NCBI GenBank assembly: GCA_030247885.1
Contig: JAPDRO010000007.1
Coordinates: 1 to 64,000 of the forward strand
Direction of reading: 5' to 3'
From: Taxawa tesnikishii (nom. ined.)
Taxonomy: Eukaryota; Ascomycota; Dothideomycetes; Dothideales
DNA length: 64,000 nt
Shown here: in pieces, positions 1-18,094 of the stretch
Layout: each line of letters begins with the position of its first letter
Numbering within the stretch: position 1 is the stretch's first letter
Notes under the pieces: generated by a model
Databases searched by the model: none
What the model was told of the DNA's origin: nothing
The model's input: the letters and a program-made list of their open reading frames with translations, nothing else
Translations under genes and position numbers: made by a program

Positions 1-129
1 CCCTAACCCTAACCCTAACCCTAACCCTAACCCTAACCCTAACCCTAACCCTAACCCTAAACCCAACCCTAACCCTAACCTAAACCTAAACCCTAAACCC
101 TAACCCTAACCCTACCTAAAACCCTACTT
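1..129. repeat. Telomeric repeat array (CCCTAA)n
   Basis: Perfect CCCTAA units fill about the first 60 bases. Degenerate units such as CCCAAC, CCTAAA and CCCTAAA follow up to about base 129. This is the C-rich strand of the TTAGGG telomere repeat of filamentous ascomycetes and shows that the window begins at a real chromosome end. The degenerate inner part is the usual proximal telomere border, where old repeats are no longer renewed by telomerase. Confidence 0.98.
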
Positions 130-501
130 AACTATAACCGAATATTTAGTAGAGTTAACTATAACTTATTAATTAATTTCGCTATTTATAATAGTAGCTA
201 AAAGATAAAGAGATTTCTTACTTAACTTAATAAGTTATATAACTATCTATCTAAACTAAGTAGTTATTATCTTATAAAATTTTCTATTATTTTACTTATA
301 TATCTTTCTTTTACTTTACTCTTTTTATTTCTTTTTATTTTACTTTTATTCTTTCTTTTTACTTTATCTTTACCTTATTTCTTTTACTTTACTTTTACCT
401 TTTTCTTATATTTTATTAGCCTTTATATACTCTTTATATATATAATTAAGAGTAGTAAACTTTAACTTACTAAATATTTATTTATATATATTATATATAT
501 A
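130..501. other. Subtelomeric AT-rich spacer, no gene
   Basis: RIP-like AT-rich DNA with no reading frame of interest. Roughly bases 262-417 carry almost no G on the plus strand (long runs of T and C, such as TTTCTTTTAC repeats), a strong strand asymmetry. The expected 5' part of the A2 transposon, into which C1 is inserted, is not found here. Confidence 0.7.
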
Positions 502-2348
502 ATATGTTTTATTACTAAGTAGCTACTTCCTACTAAGTAGCTACTCCTTATTAATATCGTAACTATTATAGACTATTATAATAATACTACTATAATATAA
601 CGCGTAATTTACTTATAATAAAGGTATACTATACCTTACTATTAAGGCTACTTAAGTAACTCTTCCTAATAGTATAAAATACGTATCTAAGGTATATAAC
701 GTCCCTTAAATAACGCTAAGATAATAACGTAATAAAAAGTTCGTACGACGTAACTATAAGCTTAACTTAAAGAAGCTAAAGAAAATAAAGGAAGAGGTAA
801 TAATAGTACGTATACTCGAGTTAGACTTACGAGGAATAAGCGTTATAAGGACTATAATAAAAGAAATAACTAATAATCTACTTACTATATATAGTAAAGG
901 ACCTATTAGTAAATACTAGGTAAATAGGTTTAAGACGTATATTAAGGAAGTTAAGCTTTAACGTAGTTATTTATACGATTATTAGTAAGCCTTAAACGAA
1001 GACGTACGCGTTATAATATATTAATTCGAGCTAGTTAAAAGATAAAGAAAAAGTATAATATCTTAGACGAAGATATATATAACTTTAATAAGTTTAAGTT
1101 TATAATAAGTATAATTAACGCTTAAATAGTCTTTATAGGCTCTAAGAAATAAAGTAATCTTAAAAGATATAACTAAGTAACTAGGAGTAAGTTATAATTA
1201 TTTAAAGTATTTACGCTATTAGGTAAGTTATCTTACTCTTTATTATCTTTAGTAGTAAGGTCCTTATATCGAGCTAGTACGTCGGCTTACCTCGCGATCA
1301 AGTAATTAAGACTAGTACTAATAGCTAGACGATAAATAAGTTTACTTTAAAGTAGTTAAAGTACTTTAACGCATATATAAAGGCGCGTTAAGTAGGTATA
1401 TATTACTTACTAATTATAGACGGCTATAAGAGTTATAGTAGTTATAATTTCTATAACTATTATAAAGAATAAAAGATTATTATTCTTTATATACTCTTAT
1501 ACTCGTTATACTTATTATAGCTACTTAACGTAAGCTATTTTACTTCCTTAAAGTAAGCGTATAACGCGGAGATTAATAGTTAGTTATAATACTCTATTAC
1601 GTAAGTTAAGAAAGAGGCCTTCTTACTAGCCTTTTATACCGCTTTTAATAAGGCGATTATAAAGGAAAATATCCTAGTAAGTTTTAAAGGCGCTAGTTTA
1701 GTTCCTTACGACTTAGAGTAAGTATTATTAAAGCTTAACGTAGTACTTTATATACTAATATTCGTACTATTAGAAGTTATTTTATAAGAGTCTAAAATAC
1801 TAGTTAACTTAAAGGAAATAAAGGCGTAAATAACGCTAGTTTACGAGCGAATATAATAGTATAAAGAATCGCTTATTTTACCTTTCTTATAAGTTATAAA
1901 TTCGCTTACTAAAGGCGTAGCTATTATAAGTTATAAATTAGAGTTATAAATAAGGGAAATTATAAGTCTTCGGAAGTCGATTAAGGCGTTAATAAAGTAG
2001 TATAGTCGTAAAAGAAAGTATATTTAAATAGAGGAGAGCTTAATAGTAAGTAACGTATAGAATTTAATAGCCGAAAAGAATAATAGTAGTAAGGAGAGTA
2101 CTAAATAACTTATAAAGAAAGTACGCGCGTAAAAGTACTATAGACGTTATAGTAAGACTAGCTATAATACGCGTACTTATACTATAGAAATAGTAAATAT
2201 AAATAATAGTAACGCTTCTAAATAGTATTATAAGTTAGAGTATATCTTTATATAGTATTATAGTACGAAGGTAATAGTTTATAATAGTCGCGATATTAGT
2301 AAGGAATAGCTACTTAGTAGGGAGTAGCTACTTAGTAATAAAATACGT
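502..2348 (+). mobile_element. RIP-mutated Fot1/pogo-like transposon C1
   Basis: A 1,847-bp element flanked by TA at 500-501 and 2349-2350. Its TIRs read ATATGTTTTATTACTAAG at the left and match the reverse complement of the right end (ACGTATTTTATTACTAAG) with transitions only. Each TIR contains two direct copies of a 17-bp unit of the type TACTAAGTAGCTACTCC. The interior is colinear with the intact Fot-like transposase at 14.7 kb: the degraded counterpart of the NFDESG block is near 1080-1110 and that of the DGH block near 1420. No open frame survives, because nearly all CpA and TpG have become TpA. It is a sister subfamily of family A. It lies inside A2, whose sequence resumes directly after the right TA. 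Confidence 0.85.
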
Positions 2349-2485
2349 TATACTTAAGTTACGAATATAATAAAGCTATTTATATAATTACTAGTAAGTT
2401 ACTTATAAGAACTTAGTAGTTATTTAGCCCTAGTTTACGCTTATTTAGTTAATAAAGGTAAAGTATAATATTATAAATAAAGATA

Positions 2486-5400
2486 ACGTATTTTATTACT
2501 AAGTAGTTTACTATTACTAAGTAGTTCGCTCTTACTAATATCGCGACTATTATAGACTATTATAATAATACCTTTATAACGTAATGCGTAATTAACTTAT
2601 AATAAAAGTATATTATACCTTACTATTAAGGCTACTTAAGTAACTCCTCTTAATAGCTAAAGATACGTATCTAAGGTATTTAATATCCCTTAAATAACTC
2701 TAAAACGACGACGCGACGAAAAGCTTATATAATATAACTATAAGCTTAACTTAAAGAAACTATAAAAGATAAAGAAAGAAGTAATAGTAGTATATATACT
2801 GAGTTAGACTTATAAGGAATAAGCGCTATAAGGACTATAGTAAAAGAAATAGCTAATAATTTACTAGTTACGCGTAGTAAAGGGCCTATTAGTAAGTACT
2901 AGGTAAATAGGTTTAAGACGTATATTAAGGAAGTTAAGCTTTAACGTAGTTATTTATATAATTATTAGCGAGCCTTAAATAAAGACGTACGTATTATAAC
3001 GCTCTAGTTCGAGCTAGTTAAAAGATAAAGAAAAAGTATAATATCCTAAATAAAGATATATATAACTTTAATAAGATAGGCTTTATAATAAGTATAATTA
3101 ACGCTTAAATAGTCTTTATAAGCTCTAAGAAATAAAGTAATCTTAAAAAGGTATAATTAAGTAACTAGAAGTAAGTTATAATTATCTAAGGTATTTACGT
3201 TACTAAGTAAGTTATCTTACTCTTTATTATCTTTAGTAGTAAAGTCCTTATATTAAACTAGTATATAGACTTACCTCGCGACTAAGTACTTAAAACTAGC
3301 GCTAATAGCTAGACGATAAATAAGCTTACTTTAAAGTAGTTAAAGTACTTTAACGCGTATATAAAGGCGCGTTAAGTAAGTATAATACTAAGATAAAAGT
3401 ATCTAATAATTAGTTACTAGCTTCTATTTAAAGCGCTATACTATTAAATAAATTACTCCCTATATAGTATATATATATTAAGATAGCTTATAGATTTGTC
3501 TAAAGTATATATAAGTCCTAACGATTATAATAGTATATTTAAATCGTAAAGATACGTTTAAAATCTAGTATACTAGCCTTTTAAATTAATAATAGCCTAA
3601 ATCCTCTCCTCTATAGATAGGTAATAATTATAGATTATTTCTAGCTTAATTATTAACTATATATATACTAAAGAGTCCTTTATCCTTTTAACGATTAATA
3701 CTTTAAATCCTAACTAAGTTTTAGTATCTAGAAAGAGCTAATATAACTTTTCCTTTAAAATTAACTAAAGATACTTAATTAAATTTAAATTAAGTAAGTA
3801 TAAAAGCTAGCTATCGATTAGATTAATATCTATTTCCTTTAACTAAGCTTTAGTTTTACTAGCTATATATATTAAAGCTCTATCTTATTAATAGAGTATA
3901 TTTAGCCTCTAGATTTATAGTATAATATAGCTAATTACGTTAAAGTATAATTTAGCTATATACTCCTACCTTTTAGAAGTAATATCTCTTCGTATAACTA
4001 TTAGATTAGACTTCTAATTATCGTAAATTATACTCTATACTATAATACGTATATCCTTATTCTTATTCCTTATTTAAACTTTATTTAATTAGTAGCCTTT
4101 ATTCGGTTTCCGAAAGACTTATAACTACTTATAACTAGCTTTACGTTTAACTAAATACTCGTCTAAAAAGATAACCTTTAACTATTAAAACGTACTTTAA
4201 TTCTTATAATTCTTAGCTTATTTAAAACGTAATTATATAGTCTTTACTATTAAGAGAAGACGTAACTTTACTATCTATTTTCCGATTATAAAAGCTTATA
4301 GAGCTCGTTATATAGTTTTAGTACTAATAGCTAGGTAGAGCTTACGTTTAACTATTATATACGTTATAAAGGGGTTCTTTTATATATAGCAAATAATAGA
4401 TCGATTATTACGCTTTATAAGCTTTTATAAACATTTAGATTTCTTATATAATTCTCTATATAGATAGTTAAGTACGTTATTAACTATATTATAAATAGTA
4501 GAATATAATAGCTAGAAATTATATTAGATTCTTACGTATATATTTCTATAGTTTTTAACTAAAACAATTTAATTACGTATATATAGACTAAGCTCCTTAT
4601 TACGACGGTTATTACGCTCTATTTAAGTAGACTAAAGCCTTTATTATAGTATAATTACGTCTTTAATTTATAGTATAACTATTAATATATAAAGCTAGTA
4701 GCTAATTATTAGATACTTCTATCTTAGTACTATATATACTACCTACTAATTATAGATAGTTACGAGAGTTATAATAGTTATAACTTCTATAACTACTATA
4801 AAGAATAAAAGATTATTATTCTTTATATACTCTTATACTTATTATACTTATTATAGCTACTTAATATAAGCTATTTTACTTCCTTAAAGTAAGTATATAA
4901 CGCGGAGATTAATAACTAGTTATAGTACTCTACTATATAAGTTAAAAAAGAGGCCTTCTTACTAGTCTTTCGTATTACTTTTAATAAGGTAATTATAAAG
5001 GATAATATTTAGGTAAGCTTTAGAGGCGCTAGATTAGTTCCCTATAACTTAAAGTAAGTACTATTAAAGCTTAACGTAGTACTTTATATACTAATACTCG
5101 TACTATTAGAAGTTACCCTATAAGAGTTTAAAATACTAGTTAATTTAAAGGAAATAAAGGCGTAAATAATACTAGTTTATAAGCGTATATAACTATATAA
5201 GAATTCGCTTATCTCGCCTCTTTTATAAGCTATAAATTCGCTTATTAAAGGTATAGCTATTATAAGTTATAAATTAGAGTTATAAATAAGGGAACTCGTA
5301 GGTCTTTAGAAGTTAATTAAGGCGTTTATAAAATAGCGTAGTCGTAAAAGAAAGTATATTTAAATAGAAGAAAGTCTTATAATAAGTAACGTATAGAATT

Positions 5401-5684
5401 TAATAACTAATAAGGACGATAGTAGTAACGAGGGTACTACCTAGCTTATAAAGAAGGTACGTACGTAAAAGTACTACGAACATTATAGTAAGACTAACTA
5501 TAATACGCGTACTTATACTATAGAAATAGTAGATCTAAATAATAGTAATACTTCTAAATAGTACTATAAATTAAAGTATATTTTTATATAGTATTATAGT
5601 ACGAAGGTAATAGTTTATAATAGTTATAATATTAGTAAGGGCGAACTACTTAGTAATAGTAAACTACTTAGTAATAAAATACGT
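2486..5684 (+). mobile_element. RIP-mutated Fot1/pogo-like transposon C2, interrupted by D
   Basis: Second copy of the C family, flanked by TA at 2484-2485 and 5685-5686, with the same paired 17-bp subrepeats in both TIRs. Total span is 3,199 bp. Removing the 1,350-bp D element and its TA leaves about 1,847 bp, the length of C1. Left part (to about 3382) and right part (from about 4735) align base for base with C1 apart from transitions. It is inserted in A2 in the same orientation, at a site that is CA in the intact A copy and TA in the RIP-mutated copies. It carries no usable frame. Confidence 0.85.
3383..4732. mobile_element. RIP-mutated TIR element D (about 1.35 kb) inside C2
   Basis: Begins TAATACTAAGATAAAAGTAT and ends with the inverted copy, giving TIRs of about 40 bp that differ only by transitions. 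It is flanked by TA on both sides. The size, TIR length and TA target fit the Tc1/mariner superfamily, but the coding sequence is too degraded to recognise a DDE triad, so the family is not assigned. Removing the element and one TA restores the C-family sequence exactly as seen in C1. Confidence 0.75.
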
Positions 5685-6784
5685 TATATATAACTTTAAT
5701 AAATCTAACTTTTTAATAAGTAAGATATTATCTTAGCTAGTTATTATAGGCTTAGAGAAACTTACTAAATAAAAGAAACTATAGTTTAATAATTACAAGT
5801 AAGTTACCTTAATATAAGGTATTAAAGTTATAGGGCGTATTATCTTACTCTTTATTATCTTTATAAGTAAGGTCCTTATCTTAACTTAGTTTAATAATTT
5901 ACCTTATAACTAAATTATTAAGGTCTCCTTTACTAGCTAGACTAATAATAAGCTCGCGCTTACGTAGCTTAAGTACTTTAATACGTATATAAAGACTTAT
6001 ATTATTAAGGTATATAGGCTACTTATTATTAATAGTTATAAGAGTTACTACTTAGTCGAATTCTAAGATTACTATAAGGAAAATAATATTATAGCTCTTT
6101 ATATACTTTTATACTTCCTATACTTACTATAGCTACTTAATATTATTTACTACTTACTACTAAAGCGCTTATTTAGCGATAAGATCTTAGCCTTAGTATA
6201 TAATTATATCTACTATATTATAAAAGAAACCTTCTTAATTACCTTTAAAGTAACTTTTAAGAACGCACTTATATAGGAGAATATTTACGTAAGAGTTTAA
6301 GGTACTAGGCTAGTCTTATATAACCTAGAGGCTATATTATTAAATCTAAATATAAGGCTATATATACTAATACTACTTATACTAAGTATAGTTAAATAGG
6401 AGGCGAAAATACTACGTAATACTAGTAAAATAAAGGCGTAGTTAACGCTAATTTAAAATCGTATATAAAAACATTAAAAGTCTTTAGTAAGTTCTTTAAA
6501 TAAGTAAGTTAAGTAGTTAACTAAGGGTACTTAGTAAATAGTATATAAGATAGTATTAATACGTAAAGAAATAGCGCGTCTATAAGATATAATTAAGGTA
6601 ACTATAAAGCGTAAGAGTCGTAAAAGGTAATACGTATAAATAAAGGAGACTTTAATAGTAAGTAAGATAGCTAATTTAGTTACTACTAAGGAGGGTAGTA
6701 GTAATAATAGCGAGAAACTTATAAAGAAAGTACGCGTAAAGTAGCGTTATAACTATTATAGTAAGACTAAGTATAACTCTTATA

Positions 6785-8629
6785 ATATAGTCTATAGGGA
6801 TATAAGTTATATAAAGTAGTAAGTTAATAAATCTCTACCCTTTTAACTCTATTAATTATCTACGTATTATAACTATAATATAATTAGTATTAGAGTTACT
6901 AAGTAAGTTCTTAAGTAGCTCGTCTTCTTCCTCCTTAATTATTTCTTTTACCTTATACTTACATAGCTATCTACGAGTCTTTTCTTTACTATCTTTACTT
7001 TTATTACCTTTATTATCTCGAGTACTTCTTACGTACTAAATATAAACTTCCCTTTTAATATAACTTACTTACTCTTTATTTAAGCCTTTCGAGTATTAAA
7101 AGTCTCTCTTATTCTTTTACTTACTTACGTAAAGTAATAAGCTTATTATACGTCGATTTAAAAGCGTAAGTTATTTACTTTATATATTACTTTACTAGAG
7201 ATAAAACGTCCTAGATAGCCTTTATTATAAAATTAAGTAGTATATTTACTTTACGTAGTTTAGTACTATTTAATAATAAGCTATAAAGTAGTAATAAGTC
7301 TAGATCGAGTTACTAGAGTAGTATATATAATAGTAAAGTAGCTAAAGTTATCCTAAAAGGTAACTTTTTAAGTATAAATATCGGGCTTAGTAATACTAAA
7401 CTAGTACCGCGCTATCTAGCGAGAATATTATAAGTAGTAAGTGCCTTATACTTTACGCGGATATATATCTTAGTTTATTTTATATATAATATACGACTAG
7501 AATCGACTCGTAAAGTAACGTTAGTCTCTAAGGTTAGCGTATACTTAAGTAGCGTAAATACGCTAATATTAAGTAGTTAAAGGATATATAAATAATAAGG
7601 TAGTAGGATTATTAAGTTAATCTTATTTTATATATAGAAGGTAATTACCTTACTAGTAATATAGCTACTATAGTCGTTTATAATTAGTAATCTCCGAGTT
7701 ATAAGGTCCTTTAATTATATTAAAGGCTTAAATATAATAGTTAGTTACTTATAACTATAGCTATTAAATGTTTAGCTACTATTACTAGTTGAGAACCTTT
7801 AATTTAAAGGCGTATATACAAGTATTTATATAGTATTCGTATGTTTTACCTTATAAATTAATAAGGGTAAAATAGCTAGGCTAATAGCGCTTACGTACTT
7901 AATTATAATTATTTTTTTACTTACTAATAATTTGCTTTTAACTATTATCTTTACGTATATTAACTAATACTCTTAATAACTAACTTACTTTAACTATAAA
8001 GCTAGACTCGTTTATATTATAAACGTACTCTAGTATATATTAATTTTATATTTATATCTCTATTACTACGTTAAATTACTTCTTTACGTTCTTATAGCTT
8101 ATTACTTTAAACTATACGCTATTAATCTAACGTATTTAAATACTTATAATCTTAAAATAATAAGCCTTAAAGTAATCGAGTTAATACTTATTAATTAGTC
8201 GAAGAGTTAAAGCGAAAGTCTTAGAAAGTTAAATGCGTCTACGTTATATTTCCTTAATTATTTATAGAGTTAATATAAGTAAAGTAGAGAATCTAGTACG
8301 CGTAAGATATATAATTTATCGTACTAATGTCTTTTCTTCTAGTATAAAAAGAAGCTACTTATCTTAGTACGCTATAGCGCGTAAAGTTTATTTAAATATA
8401 TAATACTATAGCGTTATATTTAGGACCTTAAATACGAGGGTAACCTTATAAACTAATAAGTATTTATTATTTTTAATAGTAGAAATAGCCTTCTAAATAT
8501 CCTCTTTTATATAAGTCTATTTACTAGGTATAAAAGTACTTATAATAGTTAGAAGTAATAGTAGAAGATTAGAAGTTTATAATATAGTAACTTACTACTT
8601 TATATAACTTATATCCTCGTAGACTATAT
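6785..8629 (-). mobile_element. RIP-mutated pogo-like transposon B inside A2
   Basis: A 1,845-bp element with TIRs of about 41 bp (left ATATAGTCTATAGGGATATA; right, inverted, ATATAGTCTACGAGGATATA), flanked by TA at 6783-6784 and 8630-8631. Its TIRs differ from those of A and C. On the minus strand, degraded counterparts of the pogo DGH...SH block (about 7.65-7.72 kb) and of the PPHSSH..QPLD block (about 7.56-7.61 kb) can be read through the transitions, so it is a separate pogo-like family in the opposite orientation. It sits at a position that is CA in the intact A element. Confidence 0.75.
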
Positions 8630-8805
8630 TACTTATAAAGTAGAAATAGATAATATAAAAGATAGTAACGTTTCTAAATAATTATATACTATTCTATAGA
8701 CTACTATAAAGTATTATAGTATTATATAATACTACTACGTAAATGTTCTAGTTTTATAAGGTAGTTAACTTACTTAAGTAGTTAACTTACTTATAAAATA
8801 CGTTA

Positions 8806-9202
8806 TTTACTTTATATTTTCTATATTAATACTAGATATATAATAGTATCTTTTATTTATTTATACCTTTATACTTATATTAAAAGGTATTAATACATAG
8901 TTCTTAAACTAGTAAATATAATTAAGTAGACTTAGTCCTTTTAAATACTTTATATAATTTTATACCTTTTTAAATATAAAGTACTTTTATTACTTTATAC
9001 TTAATATTAATAAATATGTTTAATATATCTACTTTAAATAGTACTTTATTAGTAATTATATCTTTATTTATAAAGAAGTAAATAAAATATATTTAACTTT
9101 ACTTAATAATAATAACTTAGACTTTATAAAATACTAAATACTTAATATAAACTATATTACTAAGAGGAAGTTATAATATTACATAAAGAAAAGTAATATA
9201 AT
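8806..9202. other. AT-rich spacer between A2 and A3
   Basis: About 400 bp of AT-rich DNA with no recognisable element ends or reading frame. CpA and TpG are rare but a little more frequent than inside the transposons. Confidence 0.6.
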
Positions 9203-9204
9203 TA

Positions 9205-11051
9205 ACGTGTTTTATAAGTAAGTTAGCTACTTAAGTAAGTTAACTACCTTACGAAACTAAAATACTTACGTAGTAACATTACGTAATACCTTAATAATAT
9301 AACGTATAATATACTTATACTAAAGGAAATATATACCTTACTATCTCTAATATTATATCTAAGTAAATTTAAAGTAAGAGACGCGCTATAGTAGTATATA
9401 TTATACTCTAATTAACGCTATAAGACTAATACGCTAAATAGCGCTCTTAATATAACTACGAGCCGAAATTAAAGCGCCTTATAAAACTAAAAGAGGAGGT
9501 AATAATATAGCGTATATTAGACGAGAGTTTACGTAGTATATTACCCTTAAAGGGAAATATATAAGATATAATAGATAAACTACTAGGAGAGCATAATAAG
9601 AAGCCTATTAGTAAAAACTAAGTTAATAACTTTATTAAGTATACGCCTAAGTTACGAACGTAATAAAGTCGTTCGTACAATTACTAGTAAGTTACTTATA
9701 AGAATCTAGTAGTTATTTAGCTCTAGTTTACGCTTATTTAATTAATAAAAATAAAGTATAATATCTTAAATAAAGATACTTATAACTTTAATAAATTTAG
9801 CTTTTTAATAAGTAAGATATCGTCTTAGCTAGTTATTATAAGCTTAGAGAAACCTAGTAAATAAAAGAAACTATAGCCTAGTAATTGCAAGTAAGTTACC
9901 TTAATATAAGGTATTAGGACTATAAGGCGCGTTATCTTACTCTTTATTATCTTTATAAGTAAAGTCCTTATCTTAACTTAGTTTAATAATTTACTTTATA
10001 ACTAGATTATTAAGGTTTCCTTTACTAGTTAAACTAATAATAAGCTTACGCTTACGTAGCTTAAGTACTTTAATACGTATATAAAGACTTATACTATTAG
10101 GGTATATAAGCTACTTATTATTAATAGTTACGAGAGTTACTACTTAGTTAAATTTTAAGATTACTATAAGGAAAATAATATTATAACTCTTTATATACCT
10201 TTATACTCTTTATACTTACTATAGCTACTTAATGTCGTTTATTACTTACTACTAAAGTGCTTATATAGCGACGAGATCTTAGCCTTAGTATATAGTCGTA
10301 TTTATTATATTATAAAAGAAACCTTCCTAACTACCTTTAAAGTAACTTTTAAGAAGGTATTTATATAGGAAAATATCTACGTAAAGTTTCGAGGTACTAG
10401 GCTAGTTTTATATAACTTAGAGACTATATTATTAAAGCTAAATATAAGGCTATATACGCTAACGTTACTTATACTAGGTATAGTTAAATAGGAGGTAAAA
10501 ATACTACGTAACGCTAGCAAAATAGAGGCGTAATTAATGCTAATTTAAAATTATATATAAAAATATTAAGGGTCTTTAGTAAGTTCTTTAAATAAGTAAG
10601 TTAAGTAATTAACTAAGGGCGCTTAGTAAATAGTATATAAGATAGTATTAATACGCGAAGAAATAGCGCGTTTATAAGATATAATTAAAGTAACTATAAA
10701 GCGTAAGAGTTATAAAAGGTAATATATATAAATAGAAGAAACTTTAATAGTAAGTAAAGTAACTAATTTAGTTACTACTAAGAAGAATAATAGTAATAAT
10801 AATAGTAAGAAGGCTACGAAGAAAGTATATATAAAGTAGCGTTATAGTTATTATAGTAAAACTAAGTATAATTCTTATATTTATAAAGTAGAAATAAAAG
10901 ATATAGAAGATAGCGACGTTTCTAAATAATTATATACTATTTTATAAACTACTATAAAGTATTATAGTATTACGTAATATTACTACGTAAGCGTTTTAGT
11001 TTCGTAAGGTAATTAACTTACTTAAGTAGTTAACTTACTTATAAAATACGT
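9205..11051 (+). mobile_element. RIP-mutated full-length Fot1/pogo-like transposon A3
   Basis: 1,847 bp, flanked by TA at 9203-9204 and 11052-11053. It has exactly the same length as the intact copy at 14622-16468 and aligns with it along its whole length where I compared it, differing by transitions that turn CpA and TpG into TpA. TIRs begin ACGTGTTTTATAAGTAAG against ACGTGTTTCACAAGTAAG in the intact copy. No net insertion or deletion has accumulated, so RIP alone appears to have destroyed it. It can produce no transposase. Confidence 0.92.
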
Positions 11052-11053
11052 TA

Positions 11054-12314: not shown

Positions 12315-12425
12315 TTCTCGCGTTTAAAAGGTCCGGTCTCGAGCGGGAAAATCCGCTATCCGCCCCGCCAAAAACGCGTTTTTAGCCCGGTTGATGCCCA
12401 TTTTCATTGTTTTTCTAGATATAGT
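12315..12425 (+). repeat. Left terminal inverted repeat of element E
   Basis: GC-normal inverted repeat matching 17985-18094 in reverse complement with about nine differences, mostly transitions. The RIP-saturated interior begins immediately inside it. Confidence 0.8.
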
Positions 12426-14621
12426 CAACGAATACTACTATTATAGCTATTATACGTATCTAGAGTGTTGTTTTACTATAGATTCTACCTCTTTTAATAC
12501 TCTAAAGGCTAGTAACTAGTTAGAGGACATTTCTATAAGTACTTAGGAAATTAATAATTTTACTAACTAAATATACGAAGGTACTATTAATATAGATTAC
12601 TAAGCTACTACTTAGTTATAGAAGGAGTCGTATATAGTTAAAACTAGTAAGGAAAATAAGGTAAAAGTTATAAAAAAGTAAAGGTAATTATAAAAGAAAT
12701 AAAAGGTAATAAACTAGCTTAAAAAGTAACTTTAGAAAATATAAAAGGTAATATTAAGGTTACTATATACTACTAGAAGGCTATTTTAGCTAGTAAAAGA
12801 AGTAAAAAGGTAGTTTCCTTCGATAATAAAGTAAAAGAAGATTTTAAAAGAATTATAAGGCGCTCTATATATACTAGTATTAGTAAGTACTTTATAAGAC
12901 TAATTAAAGAAGTATTACTTATATACCCTTAGAGAATTTAACTAACTATAAGTAAGCCTTTAAAAGGTACTTAAAAGGATATAAAGGCTAGGAGGAAAGT
13001 TACTAGAACTTAGTTAGTAAAAACTAGTAATAATAAACGCTTTAACTAACTAGAAAGTAATTTATATTTAGTAACTTATTTAATAAGTAACTACTTATAA
13101 TACTTACGTAGTTAGCCTCGAAGAGATAGTTAAGTTAATAGTCTAGCTAAAAGTAGTTATTATTTATACCTTAGTTATTAAATCGAACTACTTAGTAAAA
13201 GTAGCGTATTAGTTAAAAAAAAGGAAAAATTACGAAGGAAAAAAAAGAGTTATAAAAGAAGAAAGATAAGTTACGTTAACTATTAACTAAAAAAGAAGCC
13301 TTAAAAACTACGCCTTTTACTTAAAAGGATAGTAATATAAGTAAGACTTAAATAACTTTAGTATTACTTTAAAGGACTCCTTAGCCTTATTATAAGTTAG
13401 TTATACTTATAAAGATAAAGTTTAAGGCTTACTATAATTACCGACTTATCTTTTATACTAATAGTATATTAAATACTACTTCTAAGGACCTTTAAATAAA
13501 CTAATATAAGCGTACTAATACTACTATTATAAAGGATATTACTTTACTTAATAAAACAAAGCCTAAGCTCTTTTACTATTATAAACGTATAACTATTATT
13601 ACCTTAGTAGTAGTTATACGTCCTTCGGGTACTATAATAAATACTATTAATACGCTAAATAACTAAGAAGAATAGTAGAGTATTATTAACTATATATAAT
13701 TTAACGAAGTCGCTAAATATAAAGTTTACTTTATTATAGTAGTAAATATTTATTCTTTTTAACTAAATAGATCGCCTCTAAAACTAGTACTAACTTTAAT
13801 ATTAGTCTTATTACCTTAATTACCTTAGTTACCTTAGCTACCTTAGTTATCCTTTAGTAACTTTATTACTTCTTTTAATACTCCTCTAATATAGCTAAAT
13901 TAATAGCGTAAGGAAAAGTAAAAGAAAAAGAAGGAAGTTAGTAAGAAATCGAAGAAGTAATCGAAGTAATATTATAGTAAGTAAGGCTCTTTTAAGAGGA
14001 GATCTAAAAGTATTATAACTATAATAATAGCTAGTATTACTACTAGCCTTATATTATAGCCTATTTTTACTATTTTAATTTATCTACTAATTAAAATAAG
14101 TACTTTATTATCTTATTATAAATAAGTAGCTACTAGAGAAGAGTAATTAATAATAATATAAGTAGTACGATAAAGAAGCCTTTAAAGACTATTATTATAA
14201 ATATCCTAAAGGACTATAAATAAATACTTAATAAAACTATAAAGAGTAAGTAAAAGCGTTAATAGTAATAGTTATAAAATAGTAGTCTATTAGTTATATA
14301 TAATATTACTAGATAGAGTAACTAGTAACTACCTTAATAAGTACCTTAATTAAGTCCTTAACCCTCTTTTTTAATAGACTCTTTTAACTAGCTAATAATA
14401 CTTTCGTACTACTTAGAGCCTCTAGTAAGTAGCCTTCTACTAATTACTACTATAAATCCTTTATAACTACGACTTTTCTTTAACTAGTTAATATTATAAG
14501 TTACTTTAACTATATAATAAAAACTAGAGAACTATTATAACTTACTAAAAGAGAGTTTCTAGACCTTAAAGTTAATAAGAAGAAACTAAGATAATAAGTT
14601 AAAGGAAATTATTAAGGAATA

Positions 14622-14702
14622 ACGTGTTTCACAAGTAAGTCGGCCACCCAAGTGAGTCGGCCACCTCGCGAAACTAGAACACCTGCGCAGCAACATTGCG
14701 CA
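14622..14702 (+). repeat. Left TIR of A4 with paired 17-bp subrepeats
   Basis: Contains AAGTAAGTCGGCCACCC directly followed by AAGTGAGTCGGCCACCT, then CGCGAAACTAGAAC and GCGCAGCAACATTGCGCAA. Tandem sites of this sort in a TIR are candidate transposase binding sites. Confidence 0.85.
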
Positions 14703-16346
14703 ATGCCTCAACAACGCAACGTGCAATACACCTACACTGAAGGAGATATATACCTTGCTATCTCTGATATTACATCCAAGCAAATTCAAAGCGAGAGACG
14801 CGCTGCAGCAGTATATACTGTGCCCCGATCAACGCTGCAAGACCGACGCGCTGGACGGCGCTCTCGACGCGACTACGAGCCGAAATCAAAGCGCCTTACA
14901 AAACTAGAAGAGGAGGTGATAGTACAGCGTGTGCTAGACGAGAGTCTACGTGGCGTACCGCCCTCGAAGGGAAACATACGAGATATGGCGGATAAACTGC
15001 TAGGAGAGCGTGATGGGAAGCCTGTTGGCAAGAACTGGGTTGACAACTTCATTAAGCGTACGCCTGAGCTACGAACGCGATGGAGCCGTCCGTACGATCG
15101 CCAGCGAGCTGCCTGCGAGGATCCGGCGGTTATCCAGCCCTGGTTCGCGCTTGTTCAGTCAATGAAGGCGAAGTATGGTATCTCAGATGAGGACACCTAC
15201 AACTTTGATGAATCTGGCTTTCTAATGGGCAAGATATCGTCTCAGCTAGTTGTTACAGGCTCAGAGAAACCTGGTAAACAGAAGAAACTACAGCCTGGCG
15301 ATCGCGAGTGGGTTACCTTGGTACAAGGCGTCGGGGCTACGGGGCGCGTTATCCCACCCTTCATCATCTTCGCAGGCAAGGTCCTTATCTCAACCTGGTT
15401 CAACGATCTACCTCGTGACTGGATTGTTGAGGTCTCCTCTACTGGCTGGACTAACAACAAGCTCGCGCTCGCGTGGCTTAAGCACTTCGATGCGCATACG
15501 AAGGCTTATACTGTTGGGGCATATAGGCTGCTTATTATTGACGGCCACGAGAGCCACTGCTCGGTCGAATTCCAGGATTACTGTAAGGAGAACAACATTA
15601 TAGCTCTCTGTATGCCTCCACACTCCTCGCACCTACTGCAGCCACTTGACGTCGTCTGCTACTCGCTGCTAAAGCGCCTGTATGGCGACGAGATCTCAGC
15701 CTTGGCACGCAGTCGCGTTTACTATATCACGAAAGAAACCTTCCTAACTGCCTTTAAAGCAGCTTTTAAGAAGGCGTTCACACAGGAGAATGTCTGCGCA
15801 GGGTTTCGAGGCGCTGGGCTAGTCCCATACAACCCAGAGGCTGTGTTATCGAAGCTGGATGTAAGGCTGCGTACGCCAACGCCGCCTGCACCAGGTACAG
15901 TCGAATGGGAGGCGAAAACACCGCGCAACGCCAGCGAAATAGAGGCGCAGTCAACGCTAATTCGAAATCGCATGCAAAAACATCAGGGGTCTCCAGCAAG
16001 CTCTTTGGATGAGCAGGTTAGGCAGCTGACCAAGGGCGCTCAGCAGATAGCGCATGAGATGGTGTTAATGCGCGAAGAAACAGCGCGTCTGCGAGACGCA
16101 ATTGAGGCGGCCACAAAGCGCAAGAGCCGCAAAAGGCAATACGTACGGGCAGAGGAGACTCTAACAGTAGGTGAGGTAGCTGATCTGGTCGCTGCCAAGG
16201 AGGGTAGCAGTGGTAATGACGGCGAGAAGGCTGCGAAGAGGGTGCGCGTAGAGCGGCGTTGCGGCCGTTGCGGCGAGACTGGGCATAACTCCCGCACCTG
16301 TAAAGTAGAAATAGAGGATGCAGAAGATAGCGACGTTTCTGAATAA
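14703..16346 (+). CDS. Fot1/pogo-like transposase (DDE endonuclease)
   Basis: Single-exon 547-aa transposase from the ATG at 14703, just inside the left TIR. An upstream GTG at 14652 opens the frame but is unlikely to start translation in a fungus. The N-terminal 130 residues hold the helix-turn-helix DNA-binding part typical of pogo/CENP-B-like proteins (RLTKLEEEVIVQRVLD, then PVGKNWVDNFIKRTPEL). The DDE catalytic domain follows: Asp169 in YNFDESGF, Asp280 in LLIIDGHESH and Asp316 in LLQPLDV, with 35 residues between the last two. The C-terminus has a coiled-coil-like stretch, a basic region and a zinc knuckle Cys520-x2-Cys523-x4-His528-x4-Cys533. Length is close to Fot1. It would cut and paste the element at TA sites in the nucleus. 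Confidence 0.95.
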   Translation: MPQQRNVQYTYTEGDIYLAISDITSKQIQSERRAAAVYTVPRSTLQDRRAGRRSRRDYEPKSKRLTKLEEEVIVQRVLDESLRGVPPSKGNIRDMADKLLGERDGKPVGKNWVDNFIKRTPELRTRWSRPYDRQRAACEDPAVIQPWFALVQSMKAKYGISDEDTYNFDESGFLMGKISSQLVVTGSEKPGKQKKLQPGDREWVTLVQGVGATGRVIPPFIIFAGKVLISTWFNDLPRDWIVEVSSTGWTNNKLALAWLKHFDAHTKAYTVGAYRLLIIDGHESHCSVEFQDYCKENNIIALCMPPHSSHLLQPLDVVCYSLLKRLYGDEISALARSRVYYITKETFLTAFKAAFKKAFTQENVCAGFRGAGLVPYNPEAVLSKLDVRLRTPTPPAPGTVEWEAKTPRNASEIEAQSTLIRNRMQKHQGSPASSLDEQVRQLTKGAQQIAHEMVLMREETARLRDAIEAATKRKSRKRQYVRAEETLTVGEVADLVAAKEGSSGNDGEKAAKRVRVERRCGRCGETGHNSRTCKVEIEDAEDSDVSE

Positions 16347-16387
16347 TTATATACTGTTCTATAGACTGCTGTAAAGTGTTGTAGTGT

Positions 16388-16468
16388 TGCGCAATGTTGC
16401 TGCGCAAGCGTTCTAGTTTCGTGAGGTGGCCGACTCACTTGGGTGGCCGACTCACTTGTGAAACACGT
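16388..16468 (-). repeat. Right TIR of A4 with paired 17-bp subrepeats
   Basis: Inverted copy of the left TIR. Both 17-bp subrepeats are the consensus form AAGTGAGTCGGCCACC(C/T). It starts shortly after the transposase stop codon at 16346. Confidence 0.85.
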
Positions 16469-17984
16469 TATAGTATTCGTTATATTATTCTTAATTACTT
16501 ACTAGTTTATATATAGAACTTAAGCTACTATATCTCTATAAGTAGCGATAGTAGTACTAGTAGTAGTAAGAAGGCTTTAAATAGTACTAGTAGCTAGGAT
16601 AATAGTAGTAGTAAGGAAGAAAATAAAGATAAGGTAATAGTACGTAGTATTTAAAGATAAAGATAAAGATAAAGATAAGAACGAAATAAGTTAAAAGATA
16701 AGTTAAAGAATAAGTTAGTAGTACGTAATATTTAAGGATAAAGATAAGATAAGTCGAAAGACGAGTTAGTAATACGTAATATCTTATAGCGTTTTAATAG
16801 TAATCTTAAACTTATATATAACTCTTTTAAATAACTCTTTAAAGTCTACTTTCTTATTCCTTTAAAAGTAATTATAAGCGTCCTTAAGGAACCTTTTAAA
16901 CTACTCTTTATAGTACTCTTTACTATAGATTAAATATAGCGCTTAATTACGTTATAGCTACTACTTTAATAAATAAAAGGTTAACTTAATAAAGTTATAG
17001 TCTAGTAAGTAAAGTAATAAAAACTTTACTTTAACGCTAAACTAACTATAAAGTACCTCTACTTTTATTAGCTAATAAGTTTTATAATTATCTATTATTA
17101 TTTACTTTTTAAATCCTTATAACTATAATAATATATACTACTTTAACTAGTAAAGGAATATCTCGGCTATAATAGAGCCTTTAATAACTAGAGTAATACT
17201 CTCTAAGTAACTATTAATAGTAAGTACTAATAAGATCGAATACTAAGTAATATACTTTAAAGTTTTAATATTAATATATAGCTAACTTCTTAGTAACTAG
17301 CTATTATGCTTATATAGCGTTTTTTACTATTATTACTTTCGTCTACGTATATTAACTAGTCTTCCTTTACGCCTTATAACTACTTATTAAAAATAGCGCG
17401 CTAAACTAAATTACGCTAAGTAGCTATACGTTACTATACCTTATTAATAAGGTCTAGTCTTACGAGCGTATAAGACATTATAGGCCTTAATATTTAGACG
17501 TTAAAACGTATAGTTAACTCTTATATTAACTTATCTTAATAAGTATTTTACTTTATATTATCCTTCTTAAAGAGTAATTATATAATATAATCCTCTATTT
17601 TCGGAGTAATAACTAGTAATCTTTTACCCTTTAATAGCGTAGCTAAAGGTCTTATAATACTTCTATATACATTAAAGTTTTCCTTTTTATAATAAAACGC
17701 TATCTTTAAGTCTTTACCTTTAAATAACGCTATAATTTAACTTCTTCTAAATTAGCTATCCTCGAAATACCCTTATAGCCGTACCTTATTATAAGGGGTA
17801 AAGGGAACTATAGTAATTACTAGTAAATAGTTATCTTAGCTAGTTATAACTTATAGTAATTATATTAAATACTTATATATTATAGAAGGCTATAAAACTT
17901 ATATAACTTAGTAGATTTACTCGCTAACGTTAAAAGAGCTTAGAGACACTATATTTAGAAGGTATTACTCTATAGTTAAAGGGC

Positions 17985-18094
17985 TATATCTTGAAAAACA
18001 ATGAAAATAGGCATTAACCGGGCCAAAAACGCGATTTTGGCGGGGCGGACAGCGGATTTTCCCGCTCGAAACCCGGACCTTTTGAACGCGAGAA
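17985..18094 (-). repeat. Right terminal inverted repeat of element E
   Basis: Inverted partner of 12315-12425, followed by TA at 18095-18096. It keeps intact CpA and TpG although the DNA directly to its left has almost none. Confidence 0.8.

Follow-up and report, generated by a model that had tools for sequence, protein, structure and literature searches.

When repeat-induced point mutation (RIP) kills a transposon, does it also make the target sites on which later transposons land? This question is raised by the start of contig JAPDRO010000007.1 of Taxawa tesnikishii (our contig C32), of which positions 1-64000, hereafter the window, were analysed within an assembly of 29.4 Mb and 34 contigs. 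There, a RIP-mutated copy of a transposon that we call element A, namely A2, is interrupted by two further elements, C2 and B, and the initial annotation of the window had proposed that both landed on TA dinucleotides which RIP had made out of CA. As in ascomycetes in general, RIP is seen here in repeats, where C-to-T changes occur on both strands and most strongly at CpA, and it makes TpA; it is known as a process of inactivation and AT enrichment, whereas here its product is the insertion site of later transposons. The proposal was sustained at both window insertions and generalises to 11 of the 15 insertions that could be scored, and it is very probable that RIP-mutated copies became a landing ground for later TA-specific elements.

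Element families and the two insertion sites in A2

The intact copy of element A in the window has an open reading frame of 564 residues, with the Pfam domains DDE_1, HTH_Tnp_Tc5 and HTH_psq above cut-off, and inverted arms (14619-14713 and 16377-16471) that are 92% complementary. Judged by these domains, the inverted repeats and the TA duplication, A is a predicted Fot1/pogo-type Tc1/mariner element. Eight further copies (L002-L009) are at most one base or gap away from that of the window, and element A has therefore been recently active. Element C, a putative Tc1/mariner element, is related to A in its DNA along the full length, and its copies are mutated: an un-mutated C copy, looked for by means of the repeat end, was matched only by L053 (both ends, 0 mismatches) and L051 (one end, 2 mismatches), and L053 is internally mutated despite its perfect ends. 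An un-mutated C-like stretch was seen on contig C2, a contig that is distinct from the element C2 of the window. For family B, likewise putatively Tc1/mariner, an iterated profile drew in A and C, which are relatives of B, and was dropped in favour of comparing sequences collapsed to purine/pyrimidine.

Families A and C make 2-base TA duplications. In our list of insertions, which has 61 rows and from which the row for B was left out of this count, TA stands at both sides of 29/29 A copies, including 15 un-mutated ones, and of 29/31 C copies (28/30 loci plus C2); of the two C copies outside the rule, L034 has an altered end and L058 is truncated where its contig stops. L053, which lies in GC-rich flanks, is likewise flanked by TA.

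The signature of RIP was counted in 14 mutated A copies (13 loci plus A3, an uninterrupted copy in the window), where CpA was changed in 3247/3330 cells (98%), CpG in 1538/3857 (40%), CpC in 529/2630 (20%) and CpT in 713/3850 (19%). The changes are C-to-T or G-to-A with CpA preference and non-RIP differences are few; A3 differs from the intact copy by 522 RIP-type differences and zero others. The mutated stretches of the window are repeats, and GC content is ordinary from about 18 kb on. Three DNA_methylase loci, candidates for a RID-type DNA methyltransferase gene, are present in the genome.

When aligned to the intact copy, A2 falls into three pieces around C2 and B (Table 1), and it breaks exactly at what we call site 1 (15194-15195, taken by C2) and site 2 (16295-16296, taken by B), each with a clean TA duplication. 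Both sites are CA in the intact copy and TA in A3, as the initial annotation had read them. Its account of the window was otherwise incomplete, as it omitted C1 and D. The former abuts A2 at an ancestral TA (A 440-441, that is 15059-15060, TA in the intact copy), only the right side of C1 being A. The latter, at about 3385-4730, is a fourth element, carried by C2 itself; the TATATA tract in which it sits is found in 29/29 aligned C copies, and D therefore dates no further RIP round.

The un-mutated reference set consisted of 15 full-length A copies among the fetched loci, that of the window included. Site 2 is CA in 15/15 of them and in L016, and site 1 is CA in 14/15 and in L028, the exception, L015, being weighed below. 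Un-mutated relatives with TA at both sites, the case that the initial annotation had regarded as decisive against it, were not found among the 15 full-length copies, and L015 has TA at the first site only. With 14 non-RIP differences from the intact copy in 1409 positions, A2 is not simply the mutated form of the window's intact copy. In the vicinity of site 1 the best local fit to A2 is that of L028, with 1 non-RIP difference in 257 positions, while the intact copy conflicts with A2 at 4 positions and L015 at 3 (554, 578, 655). L028 and L016 are the two halves of one interrupted un-mutated A copy on contig C2; against the L016 half A2 has 14 non-RIP differences in 1124, no closer a fit than the intact copy gives. 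From these comparisons, the ancestral state at both sites is best read as CA. The L028/L016 copy (C2:104990-108924) is interrupted at A 695-696, where the overlapping ends read TA, and its insert has a DDE_1 match of its own (C2:106383-106856).

The fact that both window sites are derived is unremarkable as a preference, because 71-77% of the TA in mutated A is derived; the value of the two sites lies in the order of events. Both have been struck in other A copies as well, site 1 (A 575-576) by C in the opposite orientation (L060), and site 2 (A 1676-1677) by C in L072 (C9:35320-35420), where the window has B. They are possibly hot spots.

Survey of insertions and supply of target sites

For each insertion the empty site was rebuilt by joining the flanks minus one TA, collapsed to purine/pyrimidine, and compared with 331,734 bases (the window plus the fetched loci). 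The survey loci are the best-scoring copies of two families rather than a random sample, about 1% of the genome was read, and the un-mutated references often come from one contig, C2, on which several mutated hosts also have their un-mutated relatives. For 19/61 insertions a GC-rich relative was available at 88% or more, and two-sided insertions with an un-mutated relative at 95% or more were scored, giving 11 derived, 3 ancestral and 1 neither (n=15). The first comparison yielded ten derived targets, CA in the relative for L003, L007, L010, L011, L026, L057, C2 and B, and TG for L027 and L048; two ancestral TA (L046, L050); and L023, which is neither (AA). L014 matched only itself and was excluded. 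Outside the 15, at 88-95%, the relatives read CG (L004, L033), CA (L041), TA (L043) or were conflicting (L024). Among the remaining 42, extra searches were made for the hosts of L001, L002, L005 and L006/L008, plus short stretches, and these settled two, namely L002 (CG, derived) and L005 (TA, ancestral).

The un-mutated A inserts in mutated hosts are the most informative for the order of events: five sit on derived targets (L002, L003, L007, L010, L011) and one on an ancestral target (L005). An un-mutated repeat within a mutated host means, from the way RIP acts, that the RIP of the host came first, and a CA duplication mutated later is therefore excluded. L010 and L011 lie inside mutated A copies, with element A itself as reference. 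Junctions of which one side could be read in A hosts were derived in L060 and L072, the two cases mentioned above. When all one-sided junctions, including three ancestral ones taken up below, are pooled with the four two-sided ones in A hosts, 6/9 are derived, near supply. In several cases (window 502-2350; L061/L062; L074/L105) an element is bordered by A at one end but by unrelated DNA at the other, which suggests recombination between copies or loss of a host flank.

Some targets could be approached through mutated relatives only. Ancestral inference from mutated copies alone, when calibrated on family A, found 1045/3986 derived sites (26%) with 0/1468 false calls, and was kept as support only. 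In family C hosts read in this way, CA was seen in at least one copy at 3/5 targets. An example of a miss is L007, where all 29 aligned C copies read TA at the target, yet two GC-rich relatives read CA. The relatives of L001 (7/7), L006 (9/9) and L008 (1/1) read TA at the target, and all of these are mutated copies. Misplacement of targets within TATA tracts was ruled out by the element ends and by equal spacing in the uninterrupted relatives of L001, L002, L005, L006 and L008. The truncated A copies L063-L071 and L073 were left unscored, their breaks not being at the inverted-repeat end of A, B or C. Two of them, L064 (C24:165660-165790) and L070 (C19:499500-499630), break at A about 253 and about 480, respectively, and adjoin a common end sequence of no assigned element, with a target that is not TA-like.

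That RIP raises the density of landing sites, as had been anticipated, was found for element A: TA goes from 105 per un-mutated copy to 363-416 per mutated copy (3.5-4-fold), and TA in TATA context from 19 to 111-153 (6-8-fold). The derived share of TA is 71-75% in the mutated A copies and 77% in A2. The initial annotation had also looked to an excess of derived sites beyond base composition, and here it did not hold up. With the expected derived fraction of each site taken from the other TA of the aligned stretch (0.41-0.81; 14 sites, L023 left out), 9.5 derived sites were expected and 11 of 14 observed (P=0.29); for the six un-mutated inserts, the figures are 4.4 and 5 (P=0.49).

The elements favour TA with neighbouring TA. 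Context was tested in 54 of the 61 rows, the seven others being B, two rows whose ends are unclear and four whose flanks exceed 36% GC. A second TA lies directly beside 48/54 targets, compared with 37% of 4643 other TA in the AT-rich flanks, and 14/54 targets are TATATA, compared with 5% of the other TA in the same flanks. At 12/14 scored sites the target is now in TATA context, a context that 11/12 did not have before RIP (10.2 expected). Site supply and context account for the bias, and a separate attraction to derived sites is unneeded.

Genome-scale distribution and layout of the window

To place these targets within the genome we used a small sample of 40 random 42-base points on 29 contigs of known length (27.2 of 29.4 Mb). 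By the rule used, six of the 40 count as RIP-like, and L141, with 7 TA and zero CpA/TpG, makes a seventh, so that RIP-like DNA would make up roughly 15-18% of the genome by this point sample; the seven points contain 60/105 TA. Un-mutated A copies lie in or beside RIP-like or AT-rich DNA in 12/15 cases (11 on both sides; L012 on the right side only), which exceeds the area share (7/40; P 2e-7) and, less clearly, the TA share (0.50-0.57; P 0.02-0.06). In mutated flanks there are 84.9 TA in TATA context per kb, whereas 45 kb of ordinary DNA from the window, a single stretch, has 3.4 per kb. An arithmetic estimate from supply with TATA preference predicts about 0.81-0.84 of insertions in RIP-like DNA, near the 12/15 seen.

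Matches to DDE_1 are frequent on contig C2 (1,163,921 bases), with 123 by hand count among the 150 listed genome-wide, most with long open frames. This contig appears to be a refuge for transposons spared by RIP, and it is perhaps an accessory chromosome.

CCCTAA repeats open the window, marking a chromosome end, and AT-rich repeats occupy about 1-11,000 and 12,425-18,000. Family C copies are found near both ends of contig C32 (504-2348 and 1326274-1328091 of 1328100). The intact A copy is housed in a 5.8-kb repeat (12326-18082) with 99-base inverted arms that are 89% complementary; these arms are still GC-rich and the interior is AT-rich. Taken as one, the explanation that we favour, and hold to be highly probable as a whole, is that the start of the window is a subtelomeric transposon graveyard built in layers.

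Table 1. Repeat elements and homologous target sites at the start of the window.
Feature	Position	Strand	Remarks
C1, RIP-mutated family C element	502..2348	+	right end abuts A2 at ancestral TA (A 15059-15060); left flank not A
A2, left piece (A 15059-15195)	2349..2485	+	closes with TA duplicated by C2, 2484-2485
C2, RIP-mutated family C element in A2	2486..5684	+	interrupted by D
D, element within C2, ends approximate	3385..4730	.	in TATATA tract of all 29 aligned C copies
A2, middle piece (A 15194-16296)	5685..6784	+	opens with second TA of C2, 5685-5686; closes with first TA of B, 6783-6784
B, RIP-mutated element in A2, inverted ends ATATAGTCTA.../...TAGACTATAT	6785..8629	+	ends read directly
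A2, right piece (A 16295-16470)	8630..8805	+	opens with second TA of B, 8630-8631
A3, uninterrupted RIP-mutated A copy	9203..11053	+	TA at both sites
Intact A copy with flanking TA	14620..16470	+	open reading frame 14652-16346: DDE_1, HTH_Tnp_Tc5, HTH_psq
CA in intact copy, homologue of C2 target (A 575-576)	15194..15195	+	
CA in intact copy, homologue of B target (A 1676-1677)	16295..16296	+	

Alternative explanations and implications

In the order of events that we prefer, A2 would have inserted and then been mutated by RIP, from CpA to TpA on either strand and at part of CpG, which would have raised its TA about fourfold and its TA in TATA context six- to eightfold. TA-specific elements would have landed in proportion to the available TA, mostly on RIP-made sites; C2 and B would have done so in A2, and would have been mutated in turn. 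We infer from this two RIP rounds at A2. The initial annotation had reached the same order, and derived sites and the parallel of the un-mutated inserts speak for it.

Several observations weigh against this interpretation. The inserts C2 and B are themselves mutated, so that at A2 the order is argued from TA specificity and by analogy with un-mutated inserts elsewhere, and for B the inverted ends and the TA duplication are known from the window copy only. Among the 14 scored sites no excess of derived targets over TA supply was found. One-sided junctions are ancestral in C1 (440-441), L061 (C at 132-133) and L074 (A at 150-151), the other flanks of L061 and L074 not being A. Two references are weak points, namely that of L007, with 14 non-RIP differences in 401 columns, and L053, one of two for L057, which is itself partly mutated. 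Of the 12 un-mutated copies with AT-rich DNA on one or both sides, five (L001, L006, L008, L009, L012) were unscorable. And L015, although un-mutated, reads TA at the first site, with CA at the second.

This last copy bears on the possibility that in the ancestor of A2 the sites were TA to begin with, as a natural variant that made RIP unneeded. The 14 non-RIP changes by which A2 differs from the intact copy would also be compatible with such a variant. However, between L015 and A2 there are 35 non-RIP changes in 1409 positions, with conflicts at the three positions near site 1, where the CA-bearing L028 fits A2 with one difference in 257, and site 2 is CA in every full-length un-mutated copy and in L016; we therefore consider a natural variant most improbable. 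Hardly less improbable is a single RIP round, in which C2 and B entered off-target CA of an un-mutated A2 and duplicated CA, host and inserts being mutated together afterwards. With CpA changed in 98% of cells, a CA duplication would indeed now read TA, and the accessible text of one fungal study gives only 61.6% of Tc1/mariner copies in TA sites (PMC2836289). But the 15 un-mutated A copies all have TA at both sides, with zero CA or TG, L053 has TA too, and for A this scenario is refuted by the un-mutated L002, L003, L007, L010 and L011, which sit on derived TA in mutated hosts.

A different matter is whether insertions are concentrated in mutated DNA by chromatin targeting, or by selection against insertions in genes, rather than by the number of TA. 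We regard this as a serious, if somewhat doubtful, alternative. The 12/15 copies in or beside RIP-like DNA are somewhat over its estimated TA share of 50-57%, and in Zymoseptoria, as far as the accessible text goes, associations of this kind are said to be probably confounded by purifying selection, and recent burst copies to overlap less with large RIP-affected regions (PMC9970103). The same source, in the part available to us, reports no overall association of transposable element copies with large RIP-affected regions, and the burst families that it names are retrotransposons and a miniature inverted-repeat transposable element (MITE). Yet supply with TATA preference predicts about 81-84%, compared with the 80% seen, and supply is matched too when the test is made within hosts, where there are no genes; selection or chromatin may still have a partial role. 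That RIP-made TA supplied the landing ground remains our preferred reading.

The elements themselves have known counterparts. Compared with DAHLIAE of Verticillium, a Fot1/pogo-type element (PMC3441728, as excerpted), the difference here is the landing place, mutated repeats and mostly RIP-made TA, and not the element. According to the accessible part of PMC7913693, ZB prefers palindromic AT-repeats as targets, with a similar preference stated for Sleeping Beauty and Bari; like ZB, the elements studied here prefer TA flanked by further TA, and unlike in that report the preferred context is largely RIP-made, at 11/12 scored TATA-context targets. In Aspergillus flavus, A+T-rich DNA is said to grow as transposons insert again and again into the same regions (PMC9910759), and the available text, unlike our results, does not link mutation to the creation of target dinucleotides. 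None of PMC4188875, PMC9970103, PMC3441728, PMC7913693, PMC9910759 and PMC2836289, in their accessible portions, states that RIP creates transposon targets. The initial annotation had called such feedback undescribed, and we likewise found no earlier description in searches of one open-access library, a result which is not proof of absence and with which priority is not established.

It is tempting to speculate that RIP is a two-stage defence, in which decoy sites in dead repeats divert TA-specific transposons from genes and the newcomers are mutated in turn, a view to which we would give slightly less than an even chance. If it is true, roughly a sixth of the genome would, by a rough estimate, contain about four fifths of the preferred sites, those in TATA context. 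In any case RIP gains a measurable second effect, as killing a copy improves it as a target for TA-specific elements, and this would help to explain the continued growth of mutated AT-rich compartments through nested insertion. It also provides a means of dating layers, since an insert on RIP-made TA must postdate a RIP round in its host, and it predicts that TA-specific elements should gather in mutated DNA to a greater extent in fungi whose CpA-directed RIP is strong than in those that lack RIP.

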